Both the position numbers and the translations under genes were made by a program. The notes below the pieces were generated by a model, which had not been told where the DNA came from, searched no databases, and saw nothing but the letters and a program-made list of their open reading frames with translations. This document shows positions 40,301 to 51,025 of a stretch of 64,000 nt of DNA, piece by piece. The stretch comes from Spirosoma oryzae (GTDB lineage: Bacteria; Bacteroidota; Bacteroidia; Cytophagales; Spirosomataceae). Location of the stretch: contig NZ_PVTE01000016.1 of assembly GCF_003002825.1 (NCBI RefSeq), positions 62,001 through 126,000 of the forward strand, given 5' to 3'. Each line of letters opens with the position of its first letter. The first letter of the stretch is position 1.

Positions 40301-40963
40301 ATGAAGCGTTTTCTTCTGCTGGCGTTGTTAGCCGGCACCCTCCCCTATTCGACAAAAGCGCAGTACGTCAACGAGCCGTATTCGAATGTGCTGGAGTCGA
40401 CATACAATCGCTACGTTACGTTCAACTTCTCGGCCCGCTACGGGGTAGCCCTTCCGATGGGTGGTCAAAAGACGTACATCGATAAGGTATCGGCAACTAA
40501 CCTCGCCCTCGACGGAGAGTGGCTGTTCCCACAACGCTTTTCGATTGGCCTGAAGTCCGGTTATCAGTACGCGCAGATGCGGTTACCCCGGCAGGCCATC
40601 GACTACGACGGGCAGACGATTTCGGCGGTGCAAACCCGGACGTTTTCCGTCATTCCGGCTATGGCATCGCTGTCGTACTATTTCGCGGAAAACGCGGGTG
40701 CGATCCGGCCCTACGTGCAAATGGCGGGTGGTGGCGCGTTCGTTAATTACGTCAACTATTTCGGTACGCTGGCCGATCAGAGTCGGGTGTTCCGGGGAGC
40801 CATCGCGCCAGCCGTCGGGGTGAAATTCTACGGGCAGCGCGAGAACAAGTTCGGTGCTGAAATTCAGGCGCAATACCAGAATGTATTCTTCAATTACGGG
40901 CAGTTGTCCGGTAGCGCCCCGTCGCTCATGCTCTCCGCCGGTTTGATTTATCGGTGGTACTAG
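40301..40963 (+). CDS. predicted outer-membrane beta-barrel protein
   Basis: 220 residues. MKRFLLLALLAGTLPYSTKAQ is a signal peptide. Alternating strands follow (YNRYVTFNFSARYGVALPM, RFSIGLKSGYQYAQMRL, FSVIPAMASLSYYFAENAGAIRPYVQMAGGGAFV), with a C-terminal aromatic end LSAGLIYRWY typical of outer-membrane barrels. Probably co-transcribed with the DUF4136 lipoprotein. No named function. A strong terminator follows and separates it from the CRISPR array. Confidence 0.82.
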   Translation: MKRFLLLALLAGTLPYSTKAQYVNEPYSNVLESTYNRYVTFNFSARYGVALPMGGQKTYIDKVSATNLALDGEWLFPQRFSIGLKSGYQYAQMRLPRQAIDYDGQTISAVQTRTFSVIPAMASLSYYFAENAGAIRPYVQMAGGGAFVNYVNYFGTLADQSRVFRGAIAPAVGVKFYGQRENKFGAEIQAQYQNVFFNYGQLSGSAPSLMLSAGLIYRWY

Positions 40964-40981
40964 TCGAGTTTACGGTTTTCG

Positions 40982-41038
40982 GTTCCCCGTATACGGTCGG
41001 CTATCGCATAGCAGCTGTGTACGGGGAACTGCTTTTTT
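40982..41038 (+). terminator. rho-independent terminator before the CRISPR array
   Basis: GTTCCCCGTATAC (40982-40994) pairs with GTGTACGGGGAAC (41017-41029), then GCTTTTTTG. A smaller hairpin (CTATCGCATAG) lies in the loop. It ends the DUF4136/barrel unit and also protects the distal end of the array from plus-strand transcription. Confidence 0.85.
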
Positions 41039-41089
41039 GTAGTTCCCGGTTAGGAATAGACAGGATTACAGGATTCGCAGGATTTTCTT

Positions 41090-44000
41090 GCTCCGGTTCC
41101 AGCCAGATACGACTAGAAGTGATACAGGTCAACCGGGGGGGCATGCCGCCGATTCTATTTCAATTCCACTCAGGTACGATTAGAAGCCTACGCAGTGGCG
41201 GGCCTGATTGTGCAGCTAGAACCATTTCAATTCCACTCAGGTACGATTAGAAGGATAGGCCGATGCCCGTTTTAGATACAAACCACATAATTTCAATTCC
41301 ACTCAGGTACGATTAGAAGATACGACCTGACCGTCAACGGACAGCCGCGTATCAACGATTTCAATTCCACTCAGGTACGATTAGAAGACCGAAGAAGGCG
41401 AGGCAACCACAACGCCACCATCGACATTTCAATTCCACTCAGGTACGATTAGAAGGTTGGCTGGTCGCCCGACAGAAGCTGGGCACGTTGCATTTCAATT
41501 CCACTCAGGTACGATTAGAAGCCGCCACCGCTGGCCACATACAGTTGCACCCGGTTCGCACATTTCAATTCCACTCAGGTACGATTAGAAGATCAGATCA
41601 CCAACTGCACCCGGCACCAGATCCTGATTTCAATTCCACTCAGGTACGATTAGAAGGGCTGAGGTTCGGTATTGCGCTTGTGATCGAGGAAAGATTTCAA
41701 TTCCACTCAGGTACGATTAGAAGATCGTAGGTCTTCCCCGTAGCCGGATTTGTGTTGAAGCATTTCAATTCCACTCAGGTACGATTAGAAGCTGGACATC
41801 AACGAGAAGATCAACCTGAAGAGTGTCATATTTCAATTCCACTCAGGTACGATTAGAAGTCTGACCAACGAACAGTTTGCGCTGCTGCGTAAGCGCATTT
41901 CAATTCCACTCAGGTACGATTAGAAGGTGACATGAACAAGATATACGTGAATATGGCCTTGACATTTCAATTCCACTCAGGTACGATTAGAAGGGCAATA
42001 CCAGCCCGCCCACGACCACGACGACGGTATTTCAATTCCACTCAGGTACGATTAGAAGCGCACCACCCGAACGACGCCGGACATGCGGCTATTGCATTTC
42101 AATTCCACTCAGGTACGATTAGAAGTTCTCCCTCTCTGGTTAACGGACCGCCCTCCGTGGCCATTTCAATTCCACTCAGGTACGATTAGAAGTGAGTACA
42201 AGTTTGTGACCTACGCTAACGAGGATGATTTCAATTCCACTCAGGTACGATTAGAAGCTGATTATCATAAAACACCAACTACATACATGTACTTATTTCA
42301 ATTCCACTCAGGTACGATTAGAAGTAGAAGTTTTTAACTCAGTAGAAAATGTAATCTCTATATTTCAATTCCACTCAGGTACGATTAGAAGCCGCTACGC
42401 TCTTAACAATGTCGAGCGTTCGACCAAATTTCAATTCCACTCAGGTACGATTAGAAGTGATTGAATGAGCGGCCGTTTACTGAACTGGTAGTACATTTCA
42501 ATTCCACTCAGGTACGATTAGAAGTGTAGCATTCACGCCACCGATGCCAACTGTGGCTGATTTCAATTCCACTCAGGTACGATTAGAAGCACCAGGACAA
42601 GAGCACCAACGATCAGGTATACACGTATTTCAATTCCACTCAGGTACGATTAGAAGTTGATCTTGTTCTAATTGAACTGTATGAAACCCCTAAATTTCAA
42701 TTCCACTCAGGTACGATTAGAAGTTACCAGCTAAGCTTATAGCGCTTTGCCTGTTCGAAATTTCAATTCCACTCAGGTACGATTAGAAGTTGAGGAACAG
42801 CGGAAGGTACGTAATCGGCAAGCATTTCAATTCCACTCAGGTACGATTAGAAGGGAAAAAGTGGAACGCGTTGGGCGATTCAATTACGTAATTTCAATTC
42901 CACTCAGGTACGATTAGAAGGGCGCAGTGCGCGTAACCGGGTCAGCCCTCTACAATTTCAATTCCACTCAGGTACGATTAGAAGGGCAACTGACAGTTCG
43001 TTCTTCACCTGCTCAGCCTGTATTTCAATTCCACTCAGGTACGATTAGAAGCTATTGTACGGGGTGAATAGGGTCAACCCGTAGCCCATTTCAATTCCAC
43101 TCAGGTACGATTAGAAGAGCACGAGCGGCAATCTGGCGACGACGCTGCCCAGATTTCAATTCCACTCAGGTACGATTAGAAGAGTGAGCTTAAATTCTTT
43201 CTCTGGCCCCGTCACTGGCATTTCAATTCCACTCAGGTACGATTAGAAGTGCCCAGTTGATCCCCTGAGTATCGAACACGACGATATTTCAATTCCACTC
43301 AGGTACGATTAGAAGGATCTCAATCGTACCGCCCCGGCCTACGCCGTAGAATTTCAATTCCACTCAGGTACGATTAGAAGCTACTGCAACGCGTATAGGG
43401 GTCGGGTCGATTCGCATTTCAATTCCACTCAGGTACGATTAGAAGAGATCGTGGCAGCGCCTAAACTGGTCACGGCCATTGGATTTCAATTCCACTCAGG
43501 TACGATTAGAAGAATCCAGGGCGCAACCGGTATTCAGCTGTCGGCAAATTTCAATTCCACTCAGGTACGATTAGAAGCTGCTGACCGGTGCCGCCGTCGC
43601 CGTAGCGATCGTAGATTTCAATTCCACTCAGGTACGATTAGAAGGCCGCCAAAGAAGCCGCAGGAGACACGATCACGTTCGATTTCAATTCCACTCAGGT
43701 ACGATTAGAAGGCTGGTTCCTGTTCCTCAGTGCGCGCCCGGTTGGTGTATTTCAATTCCACTCAGGTACGATTAGAAGCGTCTTATCGTTGCGACCCAAC
43801 CGTTCCTGTAGGCATTTCAATTCCACTCAGGTACGATTAGAAGCGAAAGAGAGATGATGTATACAGGCAAGTCACATGAATTTCAATTCCACTCAGGTAC
43901 GATTAGAAGCCCGGCGGTGGCCGCGCCGTGCTGCCCATTCAACATTTCAATTCCACTCAGGTACGATTAGAAGCGAATCCGTATTGTTGAACGCGTTGAA

Positions 44001-46548
44001 GTAGCCCTATTTCAATTCCACTCAGGTACGATTAGAAGCAGTATCACCCTTTCAGCCCCGGTGGGGGGTACCAACATTTCAATTCCACTCAGGTACGATT
44101 AGAAGATCGCCGGTATCACCCTTAATGCCCTGAATTCCTTGATTTCAATTCCACTCAGGTACGATTAGAAGCCGCCGTACTTATTGAAGATTAACTCGCG
44201 CTCTTTCTATTTCAATTCCACTCAGGTACGATTAGAAGACCGCGCCCGACGGATTGGTATAGAATAGACAGTATTTCAATTCCACTCAGGTACGATTAGA
44301 AGACGACGCGCTGAAAAATATCCTGGAAGCCTTTCCTGGATTTCAATTCCACTCAGGTACGATTAGAAGGGGCTTGATAGGCGGCACTACCTGCGGCACA
44401 GCTTTATTTCAATTCCACTCAGGTACGATTAGAAGTATGTCGCCGGGACCGCACTCGCCCCGGTAGGTCGCATTTCAATTCCACTCAGGTACGATTAGAA
44501 GGGGCGTAAAGGTAGGCGGCTATATCGCGTATATCTTATTTCAATTCCACTCAGGTACGATTAGAAGGCCCTGAATGCTTCGACGTCTTCGGGCAGAATA
44601 CGGATTTCAATTCCACTCAGGTACGATTAGAAGCTTCTTCTTGATGCGCAAAAAATACTCTTTCTCCCAATTTCAATTCCACTCAGGTACGATTAGAAGC
44701 TTGATTCATGATGTGTGATTTAATAAGAGATTGTGAATTTCAATTCCACTCAGGTACGATTAGAAGACGCCCGCCGGCTAGCCGGCTCGGCGAGTCTGGA
44801 ACATTTCAATTCCACTCAGGTACGATTAGAAGGTGTCTATACCCCAAGGCCAATACTCTCTTGAGTTTATTTCAATTCCACTCAGGTACGATTAGAAGCA
44901 GGCACGATCCCAAGCTGATGGTTGCGGCAAATGACATTTCAATTCCACTCAGGTACGATTAGAAGACCCGGTCAATTGGTGCGGTTAAATCCTGCTGATT
45001 CAATTTCAATTCCACTCAGGTACGATTAGAAGATCATGGGTACAAAGCAACCCGTTCGCCTATCAAAAATTTCAATTCCACTCAGGTACGATTAGAAGGG
45101 GCCTGTTCTAAGGCAAACGTTAATTTTTTATATAATTTCAATTCCACTCAGGTACGATTAGAAGACCGCCCGAATAGCCGCTACCGAGCAGCCCAATTGC
45201 ATTTCAATTCCACTCAGGTACGATTAGAAGCCAGGGGATGTCAGTAGGCAGGGTGGATTCGGGAATATTTCAATTCCACTCAGGTACGATTAGAAGGACC
45301 TTATTATTGAACTTTTCAAACGCTCCAGCTAAATTTCAATTCCACTCAGGTACGATTAGAAGCCGAGCAGGTCAACGTAAAGACCAAAAACCTCAATATC
45401 ATTTCAATTCCACTCAGGTACGATTAGAAGAGACTAAGCCAGATAGTACGACGTTGGCAATGATCAATTTCAATTCCACTCAGGTACGATTAGAAGGGGC
45501 ACGATCACCGGCAACGAATACGCCTACATGAACATTTCAATTCCACTCAGGTACGATTAGAAGGTCTGACGCAGCCGTTGATCGATTGGAAGACTATGAT
45601 TTCAATTCCACTCAGGTACGATTAGAAGCTGGTACTGCCTACGGCGCGACGCCTGCACTAGCAATTTCAATTCCACTCAGGTACGATTAGAAGGACCTTT
45701 TGCATCTTCCTTACCAGTCCATCCAAAAAATTTCAATTCCACTCAGGTACGATTAGAAGCGGCTTCGGTGCCGCTGCCGACGCGTTGCGCTTCAATTTCA
45801 ATTCCACTCAGGTACGATTAGAAGGTTTGAGTTTGTACTGCTTCCCGGCGAGTCAAAACGATTTCAATTCCACTCAGGTACGATTAGAAGTCGGGTTGCC
45901 CTTCTTGTCGCGATCCTTTAGGTCTTATTTCAATTCCACTCAGGTACGATTAGAAGCTGAACCCAAAAACGGTCGGCAAACTGCAAACTACGTATTTCAA
46001 TTCCACTCAGGTACGATTAGAAGGCAGGATTTGTTTGCGGCAAAGGCTGTAGTGAACGAATTTCAATTCCACTCAGGTACGATTAGAAGTGGCTGGCTAA
46101 GCCGGTTACATCTCGAATCAATCTAATTTCAATTCCACTCAGGTACGATTAGAAGGGACTTAGCAAACGTGGACAGCACGGGCCTGCCCATATTTCAATT
46201 CCACTCAGGTACGATTAGAAGCGTACGGTAACCGGTATGTTCTTGTTCGCTTCATGCATTTCAATTCCACTCAGGTACGATTAGAAGCCCTTCGGCGCGT
46301 CGATAATCGTCAGCAGTGTCTGATATTTCAATTCCACTCAGGTACGATTAGAAGGGCTGTAACCGTCTCTTCGCGAATGAGTGTAGCCAATTTCAATTCC
46401 ACTCAGGTACGATTAGAAGGCGCTGGCGCAGCCGACGGGTGGCAGTATCATCATTTCAATTCCACTCAGGTACGATTAGAAGGCGGACGGCACTGGACAA
46501 CGCGGAGTTTTCGGGCTTATTTCAATTCCACTCAGGTACGATTAGAAG
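41090..46548 (-). CRISPR. orphan CRISPR array: 82 identical 30-base repeats plus one degenerate
   Basis: By hand I count 82 repeats of 30 bases, all identical as read, first at 41157-41186 and last at 46519-46548, with 81 spacers of 33-40 bases (mostly 35-37). A further degenerate repeat (41090-41119, 21 of 30 matching) and one more spacer (41120-41156) lie before them. On the plus strand each repeat begins ATTTCAATTCCACTCAGG and ends GATTAGAAG. On the minus strand it ends ATTGAAAT, the 5'-handle type of many type I and type III systems, so the crRNA strand is minus and the leader lies above 46548. The degenerate end at low coordinates agrees. There is no cas gene in the window. Period about 66 bases. 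Confidence 0.98.
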
Positions 46549-46847
46549 CCGTTAAGTTAGGGAACAGAAAGGGTGGTTTCAAGGCTGTCAGCCCATTTTT
46601 CCAATCCGGCAGCTTGCGCTAAAAAGCGTCGACCGGTAATCATACGAAAAACCCCGGCGATCGACGACGGCTTATAATCAGCGCGTTACGCTTCCTGGGC
46701 CGCTGTGTGCAGTTACTATCCGTTTGTCAAAGAACGATGGTTTATCCGATCGACGCGATTTATCGACCGAAAACCACATCGATTTACCGTTACTATATCG
46801 TCACAATCTGTTAGTTACGTATCGTTCACCGACGGATTGTACGCTGT
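46549..46847 (-). promoter_or_regulatory. probable CRISPR leader region
   Basis: 299 bases without a gene between the newest-end repeat and the eboA stop. On the array strand, it is the region expected to hold the leader. The 60 bases next to the array include CTTGAAACCACCC and CCCTAACTTAAC; the far half is more AT-rich (46739-46830, with repeated ATCGAT/TTTATCGA words). I cannot point to a certain promoter. Because eboA is read toward the array, read-through from eboA is also possible. Confidence 0.5.
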
Positions 46848-47522
46848 CTATAGCAATTCCTCCATGTGGGGTGGCAAGGTGCGTCCGGCGGCCCGACGCT
46901 CGGCTGCGTAGTCGGTCAGTGTCTGCCTTAGACGGTCGTTGTTACGGTCGTGCAGACCAGTAATTTGCGTAATGTCTTTGTCGGTGAAAAAGGCTTTCAG
47001 GATAAGCTGATTCCAGGCGGCTTCGTCGAACTGTTCGGCGGGGTACGGGTTGTGCAGCATAATGGCCGACTGCACATCCGCGATGTTGTTTCGAATACCC
47101 TCGGTTGCCAGAAATCGCCACCGCTCGGGATACGACAGTACGGGCAGGGCCGAATAAAGCGCGACCAGTTCGTTGAGTTCTGCGCCTTTGAACAACTGCG
47201 TGATGGTGCTGACGTAGCGCTCCTCATCGTCGGCCGGTAGTTGCAGCAGCCACCACACCCGCGCCAGCCGGTCGCGTGTCCAGCCCGCTACGGAGAAGCC
47301 GGGCCGAATACGCTCGATAGCAAACGCCATATCGGGTGGCAAGTCGATTAGCTGTCTGCCGACGTAGCGGGGCATGGCGGTGAAGACACGGTAAAACTGG
47401 GCAGGTCTAGGGTCAATCTGGAACTGATCGGTCTGTTGCCGCAGGTACTGAACGGCAGCGGCCGAATCGGGCTGCTGTTCGAGCAGGTAAAGCAGCGTCT
47501 GGCTCATCGCGAGAATAGTCAT
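46848..47522 (-). CDS. eboA: EboA-family protein
   Basis: 224 residues from ATG 47522 (an ATG at 47507 is also possible; an ATG at 47702 would lie inside the divergent gene and is rejected). The signature part is PERWRFLATEGIRNNIADVQSAIMLHNPYPAEQFDEAAWNQLILKAFF, then GLHDRNNDRLRQTLTDYAAERRAAGRTLPP, which matches EboA proteins (NPYP, WNQ, LKA.F, DYA.ER.AAGR). EboA has no known catalytic role; it belongs with EboB and EboC in export of a lipid-linked or aromatic compound. Here it is cut off from eboB and eboC by 7.4 kb with the CRISPR array. It diverges from an MFS gene. Confidence 0.8.
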   Translation of the reverse strand: MTILAMSQTLLYLLEQQPDSAAAVQYLRQQTDQFQIDPRPAQFYRVFTAMPRYVGRQLIDLPPDMAFAIERIRPGFSVAGWTRDRLARVWWLLQLPADDEERYVSTITQLFKGAELNELVALYSALPVLSYPERWRFLATEGIRNNIADVQSAIMLHNPYPAEQFDEAAWNQLILKAFFTDKDITQITGLHDRNNDRLRQTLTDYAAERRAAGRTLPPHMEELL

Positions 47523-47659
47523 ACGACAAACTTTGCCACTATTTTTGACTTTGTCAATCGACGGATCGGCAGTGACGCAACCTGGCCGGTGAGCAGGTCG
47601 AAAAACAGGTAGAAAGCTGGCCTGGTCCGCTTCGCCTGTAGTGTCCACCTTTTCGACAA

Positions 47660-48982
47660 ATGGCTTCCCCCGTACTACACACAACACCAACCACCCAACC
47701 AACCGATCTGAGCCACCGACCCATGTCGGGGTTTCAGTGGCTGATGGTCGGCATCTGCTTTATCCTGAATTTCAACGACGGTATCGACGTCCTGATCGTA
47801 TCGTTTTCGAGTACCGCAATCATGGCCGAGTGGCAGCTGTCGAAAGCCGAAATGGGCTACGTGTTCAGCGCCGGGCTGGCCGGTATGACACTGGGCTGCT
47901 TTCTGATTGCCCCCCTCGCCGACCGCTGGGGCCGACGAACGATCTTTCTGCTGTCCGTCGCGATGATTGCGCTGGGCATGCTGGGGGTCGGTATCTGTCG
48001 GCTCTATAGCCTGATGCTGGCCCTGCGTTTTCTGACCGGGCTGGGCATTGGCGGAATTCTGCCCACGATGGCGGCTACGGCCGCTGAATTCTCGAACCGG
48101 AAGTATCAGGATTTCAACGTCGGACTGGTGCAGGCTGGCTGGCCCATCGGGGCTATCCTGACGGGTCTGTTCTGCGCGAAATACATTCCTGACTACGGCT
48201 GGCACAGTGCGTTTCTGGTTGCCGGTGGCCTGGCGGTACTCATGTGGCTGCTGGTCTTTTTTTTCATGACCGATTCGCTGGAGTTCATGCTAAACAACCG
48301 ACACGAAAACTCCCTGTCGGCCGTCAACAGACTGCTCAACCGGATGACTGTCCCGGCCCTGACAGCGCTGCCCCTGATGCAGCCGGAAACACGTCGCCCA
48401 GGGGCTTCGGTACTGTTTAGTCCGGCCTACAAACGCAATACGCTAGTCATCTGGGTGGCCGCTTTTTTCGGCTTTCTGACGCTGTATACGCTGATGAGCT
48501 GGGTACCCACCATTGCCAAAGACGCCGGCCTACCGTTCGAACAGGCAACCGGCGTCGGGATCATGCTGAACATCGGCGCGGCCCTAGGCTCAACGGCAAT
48601 CGGAGCACTGGGCAGCCGGTTTGGGCTACGGCCAACGATCCTGACCTTTATGCTGATCGCCTTTGCCATCATGCAGGTGTATGCCTTTTCGACGCTGACA
48701 CCAGTGCTGATTTTCAGTCTGGTGCTACTGATCGGCTTCTTTGTGCAAGGTGGCTTCAACGGTATCTGGCCCACGCTGTCGCGGCTGTACAGTGCCTCCG
48801 TTCGGGCCACGGGTGTGGGCTATACCGTTGGCATTGGTCGGCTGGGCGCTATTTTAGGCCCGTTGTTGTTTGGTTACCTCGCCGACGGTGGCCTGACGAT
48901 CGGGCCGCTCTTTGTACTGTTCTCCATTCCCCTGCTGGTCATGGGAGGCTGTATCTGGGCGCTCCGGTCCGGGAAATTATAA
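47660..48982 (+). CDS. MFS transporter, aromatic acid/sugar type
   Basis: 440 residues with 12 helices. FQWLMVGICFILNFNDGIDVLIVSF is TM1 with the ND-G-D pattern of the aromatic acid:H+ symporter (AAHS) group; APLADRWGRRTIFLLSVAM is the loop 2-3 motif (D-RWGRR). GLGIGGILPTMAATAAEFSNRKYQDFNVGLVQAGWPIGAIL continues the AAHS/SP signature. The substrate might be an organic acid. An alcohol dehydrogenase gene follows after 28 bases, so import and oxidation of one compound is plausible. Confidence 0.85.
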   Translation: MASPVLHTTPTTQPTDLSHRPMSGFQWLMVGICFILNFNDGIDVLIVSFSSTAIMAEWQLSKAEMGYVFSAGLAGMTLGCFLIAPLADRWGRRTIFLLSVAMIALGMLGVGICRLYSLMLALRFLTGLGIGGILPTMAATAAEFSNRKYQDFNVGLVQAGWPIGAILTGLFCAKYIPDYGWHSAFLVAGGLAVLMWLLVFFFMTDSLEFMLNNRHENSLSAVNRLLNRMTVPALTALPLMQPETRRPGASVLFSPAYKRNTLVIWVAAFFGFLTLYTLMSWVPTIAKDAGLPFEQATGVGIMLNIGAALGSTAIGALGSRFGLRPTILTFMLIAFAIMQVYAFSTLTPVLIFSLVLLIGFFVQGGFNGIWPTLSRLYSASVRATGVGYTVGIGRLGAILGPLLFGYLADGGLTIGPLFVLFSIPLLVMGGCIWALRSGKL

Positions 48983-50119: not shown

Positions 50120-51025
50120 CTACTCTTTCTTTGCTTTGGGATGCGCCTGATCGTATGTTTTCTTTAGTTGTTCCAGACTGGTATGCGTATAAATCTGCGT
50201 GGCAGCCAGACTGGAGTGACCCAGCAAATCCTTGATTGCGTTGAGGTCGCCCCCCCGGTTGAGCAGATGGGTTGCGAAGGTATGACGCAGCACGTGCGGG
50301 CTCTTCTTTTCCAGCGTCGTCACGACCGACAGGTGCTTTTTAACAATGCGCTGAATCAGCATCGGGTAAGCCCCGATCCCTTTATCGCTTACGATCAGTA
50401 CCGCGTTGTCGGCCTGTCCGTTGAATTCACGTTCCTTGTACTGAATGTACTGTTGAATCAGCTCGAACAGCGACTGTGTTAGCGGAATCAGGCGATGTTT
50501 GTTACGCTTTCCCAGCACCGTGATTGTCCGGTTATACAGGTTGACGTCCGTCGATTTTAGCCCGGTCAGTTCACTGAGCCGGATGCCGGTACCGTAGAGC
50601 AGTTCAATCACCAGCTTATCACGCAGGCCTTCAAACGTATCGGGAAATTCGACCTCGTCGAGCAGCGTTCCCATCGGCTTTTCCTCAACGTAAACGGGTA
50701 GTTTACGCGACATTTTCAACGCCTGAATCTTCGTCATCGGATCGACGGCAACTACTTTCCGACGCAGGAGATAGCCGAAAAATGCGCGCAGTGTAGCGAT
50801 CTTCCGGTTCACCGACGACTTATCCATCCCACCCTCAACCAGACTGACAATCCACGAGCGGATATGCCGGAAATCCGCCTGCTCGGGTTGCTCGACCTTG
50901 CATTCCGTCGTGAGAAACTGGCTAAACTGCGCCATGTCGCCCGTGTAGGCCGTCAGCGTATGCTGGCTTAGTCGTTTTTCGAAACGGATATGCTTCAGGA
51001 AGTCGTCGGTCTGATTCACGGTCAT
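50120..51025 (-). CDS. xerC: tyrosine recombinase XerC
   Basis: 301 residues. The SAM-like core-binding domain (1-100) starts DFLKHIRFEKRLSQHTLTAYTGDMAQF. The catalytic domain has Arg in LLYGTGIRLSELTGL, Lys in LGKRNKHRLIPL, HVLRHTFATHLL (HxxR), LGHSSLAATQIYTHTS (His, then the nucleophile Tyr). The ending YDQAHPKAKKE is that of chromosomal XerC in Bacteroidota. With XerD it resolves chromosome dimers at dif. Lack of phage or transposon genes nearby supports the housekeeping role. Confidence 0.92.
   Translation of the reverse strand: MTVNQTDDFLKHIRFEKRLSQHTLTAYTGDMAQFSQFLTTECKVEQPEQADFRHIRSWIVSLVEGGMDKSSVNRKIATLRAFFGYLLRRKVVAVDPMTKIQALKMSRKLPVYVEEKPMGTLLDEVEFPDTFEGLRDKLVIELLYGTGIRLSELTGLKSTDVNLYNRTITVLGKRNKHRLIPLTQSLFELIQQYIQYKEREFNGQADNAVLIVSDKGIGAYPMLIQRIVKKHLSVVTTLEKKSPHVLRHTFATHLLNRGGDLNAIKDLLGHSSLAATQIYTHTSLEQLKKTYDQAHPKAKKE

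Follow-up and report, generated by a model that had tools for sequence, protein, structure and literature searches.

Bacteria with multiple clustered regularly interspaced short palindromic repeats (CRISPR) arrays of the same repeat that lie far from the cas locus are known (Fehrenbach et al. 2026, PMC12814883). In Bacteroides fragilis, arrays without cas genes have been described, and action in trans was suggested for one type of them (PMC5704556). Furthermore, the exchange of effector modules in situ, with the adaptation genes, the array and/or cas6 remaining fixed, is treated in a review of 2019 (PMC6452270). A full-text search of the literature on CRISPR cas genes in Spirosoma gave nothing beyond the work on B. 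fragilis. The present study concerns a very large CRISPR array of Spirosoma oryzae. It lies in a window (the whole stretch of DNA that was analysed) of 64 kb, which covers bases 62001-126000 of contig C16. This contig has a length of 132,804 bases and is part of a draft genome of 6.57 Mb and 75 contigs. Contigs C7, C24, C49 and C66 belong to the same draft genome, and codes of the type G0xx stand for genomes of congeners.

With a probability of about 0.9, the window array is the larger of the two arrays of a type I system with I-B acquisition and processing genes, and the one that lies away from the cas genes. Its acquisition of spacers in trans, its transcription and its part in interference are inferred. 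It is regarded as most likely an active array served in trans because a matching operon is present on contig C7, the leader is conserved, young spacers are shared with the array on C7, and spacers of both arrays match one prophage-like region of a relative. The pair, with one repeat in 82 and 69 copies and a single matching operon, fits the multi-array systems mentioned above, and nothing essential differs from that study (PMC12814883); what our case adds is the empty site, the profile of the leader and the young spacers in common. The B. fragilis arrays are likewise arrays of Bacteroidota without neighbouring cas genes. However, those near hipAB have 3 repeats, whereas the window array has 82 and a leader (PMC5704556). 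Both the cas-distal array and the exchange of effectors are known in kind, and the window array is a good example.

Structure of the window array

The array spans 41157..46548 on the minus strand, the orientation being taken from the leader. It holds 82 exact copies of the 30-bp repeat ATTTCAATTCCACTCAGGTACGATTAGAAG, which reads CTTCTAATCGTACCTGAGTGGAATTGAAAT in the sense of the CRISPR RNA (crRNA), and 81 spacers of 33-40 nucleotides, all different from one another. Spacer 1 (W1), the newest, adjoins the leader at the right end. At the trailer end, a degenerate terminal repeat (41090..41119, minus strand) carries 9 mismatches in 30 positions, and no further repeat-like place was found in the window at up to 10 mismatches on the plus strand and up to 9 on the minus strand. 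Regular, near-identical repeats with unique spacers and a leader at one end, which characterize a CRISPR array, are present. An earlier interpretation made from the letters of this stretch, hereafter the sequence-only reading, had given 82 identical repeats, 81 spacers and one degenerate unit, which the exact count bore out; the minus-strand repeat also ends in ATTGAAAT, as it had stated.

The absence of a nearby cas gene, claimed in the same reading, can be widened to all 132,804 bases of C16. When it was searched by tblastn with 40 proteins of CRISPR-Cas loci (Cas proteins, two WYL regulators and one YhcG), nothing matched at E≤0.01; a cas locus added to the database as positive control gave 18 matches. 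A cas operon just outside the window, which that reading had considered as an objection to action in trans, was not found on the contig either. The Rfam search over 40900-46900 returned no match, and no transfer RNA (tRNA) was found across the window. A dispersed short repeat, ACAGGATTACAGGATT, stands beside the trailer end (41059-41090) and also occurs twice, inverted, in the stretch of C7 that was read (L011, near 2949 and 3160).

A second array and its cas operon on contig C7

The sequence-only reading had called for a genome search for cas operons and for arrays of the same repeat, and this search was productive. At up to 3 mismatches, the 29-base core of the repeat has 82 copies on C16 and 69 on C7, and the reversed control gave 0. 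The 69 copies form an array at C7:67514-72052, directly preceded by an operon of a single direction with the order cas6, cas3, cas8, cas7, cas5, yhcG/DUF1016 (in two frames), cas4, cas1 and cas2. The first repeat lies about 215 bp beyond cas2. No cas genes were thus found near the window array; elsewhere in the genome, a complete operon adjoins a second array with this repeat. The distance from cas6 to the nearer end of C7 is 57 kb and that from the window array to the right end of C16 is 24 kb, so the window array and these cas genes are at least about 80 kb apart.

The best PADLOC models for Cas1, Cas2, Cas4 and Cas6 of this operon belong to type I-B (Cas1b, Cas2b, Cas4b and Cas6b). The Cas1 found is that of a type I-B system, with 437.5 bits against TIGR03641 (cut-off 304.1). 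Cas2b was recognized at 5.9e-43, Cas6b at 5.7e-70, and Cas4 with 90 bits (cut-off 65). As for the effector, I-A models match Cas8 and Cas5 best (Cas8 at 4.5e-36 with the Cas8a model PDLC01417, Cas5 at 1.1e-55). For Cas7 (103 bits, cut-off 67), the best match was the general Cas7 model among those of PADLOC and the I-A model among those of NCBIfam, the latter below its cut-off. No Cas8b signature was found in the operon: PDLC01417 was the sole PADLOC family for its Cas8, and no NCBIfam or Pfam model matched. The core of Cas3 was recognized with 169 bits (cut-off 102), and in its gene the helicase comes first and is followed at the end by a weak HD domain, which stays below the curated cut-off. 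Compared with type I-B, the system is alike in its acquisition and processing proteins and in a 30-nucleotide repeat ending in ATTGAAAT, but unlike in its Cas8 and Cas5, in the NCBIfam match of its Cas7, and in the order of the cas3 domains with the weak HD domain. By sequence comparison, the operon is one of I-B acquisition and processing genes with an I-A-like effector.

The sequence-only reading had left the choice between type I and type III. The matching operon is of type I, which speaks for the former. Type III was rejected as user of the repeat, as the Cas10 palm domain PF22335, the one Cas10 domain model used, was absent from the genome; the control was positive in 5 of 14 genomes.

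Some further observations were made at this locus. The YhcG/DUF1016 nuclease gene (PADLOC PDC-S02) lies between cas5 and cas4 in two frames (L011:16083-17112), and a single-frame relative (336 amino acids, 80%; L082:2727-3347) stands between cas3 and cas4 in G015, whose effector differs. A tRNA-like sequence was seen just past the trailer of the C7 array (L012), by eye only.

The leader and the shared spacers

The leader (46549..46754, minus strand) and the C7 array with its cas operon were absent from the earlier interpretation. When the sequences preceding the first repeat (up to 260 bases) were aligned in crRNA sense, 17 arrays of the genus had common blocks. The conserved blocks of the window leader are TTCTTTGAC and GTCGTCGATCG..CGGG..TTTTCGTA..GGTCGACG, with ACGG immediately before repeat 1. 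An nhmmer profile built from the main-array leaders of 10 congeners, with our own genome excluded and G021 left out as 92% identical to G001, found window positions 46549-46754 at E=8e-23, against E=0.19 for the second-best match in the window; the reversed window gave nothing at E≤10. A second profile from 5 of those 10 leaders found the same place at E=1.3e-20. The scan of 46540-46860 for sigma-70 promoters and terminators returned none, with a consensus that is ill-suited to the phylum.

The same profile test was applied to the cas-less places that carry the repeat or a near form of it. Eight such places were located and read, with 82 copies in our genome, 3 in G001, 8 in G002, 1 in G005, 33 in G008, 7 in G013, 7 in G015 and 4 in G023; the repeats of G033 (153 copies), G034 (36) and G021 (7) were located in part, and single copies in G013 and G029 lie outside the places read. 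A leader was found at five of the eight (our own, G001, G002, G008 and G013) and none by this test in G005, G015 and G023. Around each of the seven congener places, 10-23 kb were read, and no cas gene was found there. The cas-less array of G008, 33 repeats with a leader (L063, G008:C1:2335157-2337291), occupies another site, and its repeat differs from that of the main array of G008. In G015, the repeat of the main array (G015:C1:7325745-7329270) shifts midway from ..TTAGAAG to ..TTAAAAG, with the new form on the cas side, and the detached array (8474690-8475048) retains the old ..TTAGAAG form.

The window array and the C7 array have spacers in common. Spacer 8 (W8; 46024..46059, minus strand) is identical over 36 nucleotides to C7 spacer 7. 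The sequence is present a third time as C7 spacer 4, which begins at the same base and is one nucleotide longer at the far end. The two lengths of this one sequence point to at least two separate acquisitions of it. Spacer 16 (W16; 45497..45533, minus strand) agrees with C7 spacer 12 in 36 of 37 positions. Counted from the leader, the shared spacers are confined to the youngest 16 of 81 in the window and the youngest 12 of 68 on C7. The chance of their falling so young is 0.0013, with bounds set after seeing the data; it is 0.012 under a looser test, which asks for both pairs to lie within 4 ranks. The two arrays have no neighbouring spacers in common, and none of the window spacers was found in the congener arrays compared, several of which were covered in part only.

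Taken together, the following path is proposed. Cas4-Cas1-Cas2 from the C7 operon would insert new spacers beside the window array's own leader, from which the array would be transcribed leftward. The matching Cas6 may then cut the transcript into crRNAs with the 5' handle ATTGAAAT, as the shared repeat suggests, and these would be loaded into the complex of Cas8, Cas7 and Cas5 encoded on C7, with Cas3.

Distribution in the genus and the second CRISPR system

The link between repeat and operon extends to the genus. At up to 2 mismatches, the repeat occurs in 15 of 36 genomes, our own included. A Cas1 at least 80% identical to that of C7 is found in 13 of the 36, all of them among the 15 with the repeat, and in 0 of the 21 without it (Fisher p=4.5e-8, which is not a strict probability as the genomes are related). 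The repeat occurs without a close Cas1 in G013 (7 copies) and in G029, an exception to the pairing with one copy and only a Cas1 of the C49 type.

A second cas1 is present in the genome, 45-49% identical to C7 Cas1, within a type I-B operon with Cas8b on C49 (L013), where cas2 is cut off by the contig end. In five congener loci, operons of this type adjoin a different repeat, GTATCAATCGCACCTTCGGGTATTGAAA and variants of it. A close form of this repeat has 102 copies in our genome: 57 on C24, 44 on C66 and 1 on C49. The second system seems to have two arrays, because C24 (L186) and C66 (L187) end in near-identical leader-like sequence. C7 spacer 30 has an exact 18-nucleotide end in common with a spacer of the C24 array (L186:10292-10309), and judging from this overlap the C7 and C49 systems may have sampled one target.

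Probable insertion site

The window array lies between a gene for a weakly OmpW-like outer-membrane protein, below the Pfam cut-off (40301..40963, plus strand), and a gene for a hypothetical protein (46848..47702, minus strand) present in 36 of 36 genomes of the genus, our own included. Synteny was compared in 8 of the 35 congeners, and in all 8 loci the two genes stand side by side without repeats. Homology to our flanks breaks off about 45 bases past the OmpW-like gene and sets in again where the hypothetical gene ends, from which it follows that the extra unit is array plus leader. Since the site is empty in all eight, the array probably moved in. That cas genes once stood beside it and were lost was accordingly rejected, and the recent loss or separation that the sequence-only reading had offered as its other option is not supported. 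To judge by the empty sites of the relatives, a unit of leader and array would have inserted between the two genes.

A recent duplication of the C7 array was considered as well and rejected, as the two leaders are about 53% alike and the trailer ends differ. A tyrosine recombinase gene lies near the array (50120-51025). In 7 of 8 relatives that lack the array, it likewise stands close to the same flanking gene, which makes it an unlikely carrier.

Spacer targets

The 81 window spacers were joined and compared with 222 genomes of the family, and up to 2 candidates were scored per genome. Four of the 222, our own genome among them, matched at E≤0.001. In G018, three window spacers match one prophage-like region: spacer 49 (W49; 43316..43350, minus strand) in 33 of 35 positions, spacer 21 (W21; 45165..45200, minus strand) in 30 of 36, inside an endolysin-like gene, and spacer 72 (W72; 41792..41829, minus strand) in 32 of 38, the last with 32 of 38 in G004 as well. 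C7 spacer 50 falls in the same stretch (31 of 37), so that about 18 kb hold matches to three window spacers and one C7 spacer. Spacer 24 (W24; 44966..45002, minus strand) matches G013 in 33 of 37 positions. Reversed spacers reached at most 16 nucleotides in the same sequences, and runs of 14-15 nucleotides were taken as chance. Ten proteins of the G018 stretch were compared with known families; one is an endolysin (phrog_1224, 2.3e-61), one gave a weak portal match (7.6e-6), and eight were without a match. By these matches, the stretch is likely a prophage.

Alternative explanations

Several points weigh against a trans-served array in use. Good protospacers are few: at least 4 of the 81 window spacers have them, with 30-33 matches of 35-38 in five places. 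The bases before six places (one of them that of a C7 spacer) are CCA, CCA, CTA, CTG, GAG and TCG, in which no clear protospacer adjacent motif (PAM) can be seen. No spacer matched among 50,697 phage records, and an exact scan of viral contigs with W8 (33 of 36 nucleotides) and W16 (27 of 37 nucleotides, two positions loose) found none. Plasmid records gave three distant matches of 60-80% identity without an annotated gene, which look like repeats of other arrays. The window leader is about 53% identical overall to the C7 leader, the genome sequence is in draft state (75 contigs), and the identity of W8 and C7 spacer 7 could stem from two further acquisitions or from one copy by recombination. 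This last point leads to the view that the shared spacers arose by recombination or gene conversion between the arrays and say nothing on the activity of the window array. In its favour, W8 agrees with C7 spacer 7 in each of its 36 nucleotides, and arrays do rearrange, as a block of two spacers is duplicated within the C7 array (spacers 37-38 recur as 57-58, leaving 66 different spacers of 68). Against this, the sequence of C7 spacer 4 is the same except that its far end differs, for which separate acquisition is simplest, W16 and C7 spacer 12 are one base apart, and no neighbouring spacers are common to both arrays. We therefore hold this explanation to be unlikely, though not negligible.

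That the array is dead, a relic severed from its cas genes and retained by chance, is very improbable. Relatives do have short cas-less arrays with no detectable leader (7 repeats in G015, 4 in G023 and a single repeat in G005), but a relic is at odds with 82 of 82 identical repeats, which also count for an active array, and with the conserved leader, the young spacers common to the cas-adjacent array and the matching operon in the genome. The array might instead be served by the second system, whose type I-B operon with its own cas1 is present on C49; cross-use by its effector is thinkable because both repeats end in ATTGAAA. However, operons of that type go with a different repeat, in five congener loci and with 102 copies in our genome, and across the genus it is the C7 type of Cas1 that tracks the window repeat, with the exception of G029. 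Because of the different repeat, we reject this arrangement as very improbable. Service in trans by the C7 operon remains the reading that we prefer; cas genes elsewhere in the genome had been one of the options offered by the earlier interpretation.

Effector exchange in the genus

The C7 Cas8 has no relatives at E≤1e-10 in the 35 congeners, though 12 of them carry a close Cas1; among 221 other genomes of the family, two relatives were found, at 47-48%. Between a conserved cas6 and conserved cas4-cas1-cas2, five effector classes were distinguished, with 12 of 13 loci typed and G034 (a 3.4-kb contig) left out. Our genome represents A1, G001 and G020 represent A2, and G002, G003, G009 and G015 represent A3, while A4 consists of G005, G008 and G023, and A5 of G021 and G033. 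The classes depend on cut-offs, since Cas7, Cas5 and Cas3 of A2 and A3 are distantly related (26-32%), and G023 was placed in A4 though it is 36-54% from the other members.

Two pairs of genomes illustrate the exchange. G009 and G020 are 95% identical at the DNA level over 4461 bp before the locus, 87% over 1981 bp comprising the regulator and cas6, and 88% over 3051 bp of cas4-cas1-cas2 and leader; their effector genes gave no blastn match of at least 100 nucleotides. Flanks that are homologous at the DNA level around effector genes that are not are what in situ exchange of the effector leaves behind. G001 and G021 are 91-97% identical over cas4-cas1-cas2 and leader, have the post-array sequence and the oldest spacer in common (97% over 31 nucleotides), and differ in the effector. 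On the Cas1 tree (18 rows, 16 of them labelled, two by their best Cas8 match only), the distribution of the effector classes requires 9 changes. With shuffled labels the mean was 9.8, and 60 of 200 shuffles came out as low as the observed value. Effectors are exchanged so frequently that their class is not clustered on this tree. On the second, C49-type chassis the effector varies too, and A5 is related to effectors found there (56-58% for Cas7). In Fibrella aquatilis, close Cas1, Cas2 and Cas4 and a similar repeat occur with a distant Cas6 (47%) and another effector.

The process is the same as in the 2019 review, with five effector classes between fixed cas6 and cas4-cas1-cas2. What differs from that review is that the effector class is unclustered on the Cas1 tree, and that some genomes also have detached arrays whose repeat is the same or almost so (PMC6452270). 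Tentatively, one may think of a memory that outlives its reader: the arrays, including detached ones, Cas6 and Cas4-Cas1-Cas2 might form a stable chassis, with the effector exchanged between genomes whose Cas1 proteins are about 3% apart, and the older spacers of the window might have been acquired under a different effector from the present one. We regard this as possible, with doubt prevailing.

Conclusions

A large array without a cas gene on a contig of 133 kb may still belong to a complete system. The checks that settle such cases are to count the repeat in the whole genome, to search for a leader with a profile, to compare the young spacers of the arrays and to look for an empty site in relatives. 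If the chassis is indeed more stable than its effectors, unrelated Cas8 proteins must all read a PAM set by one fixed Cas4-Cas1-Cas2. The twelve typed loci, with nearly one repeat, one Cas6 family, one Cas1 family and five effector classes, form a natural test set in which the choice of the PAM can be probed, i.e., whether it is fixed by the acquisition genes and obeyed by each incoming effector.

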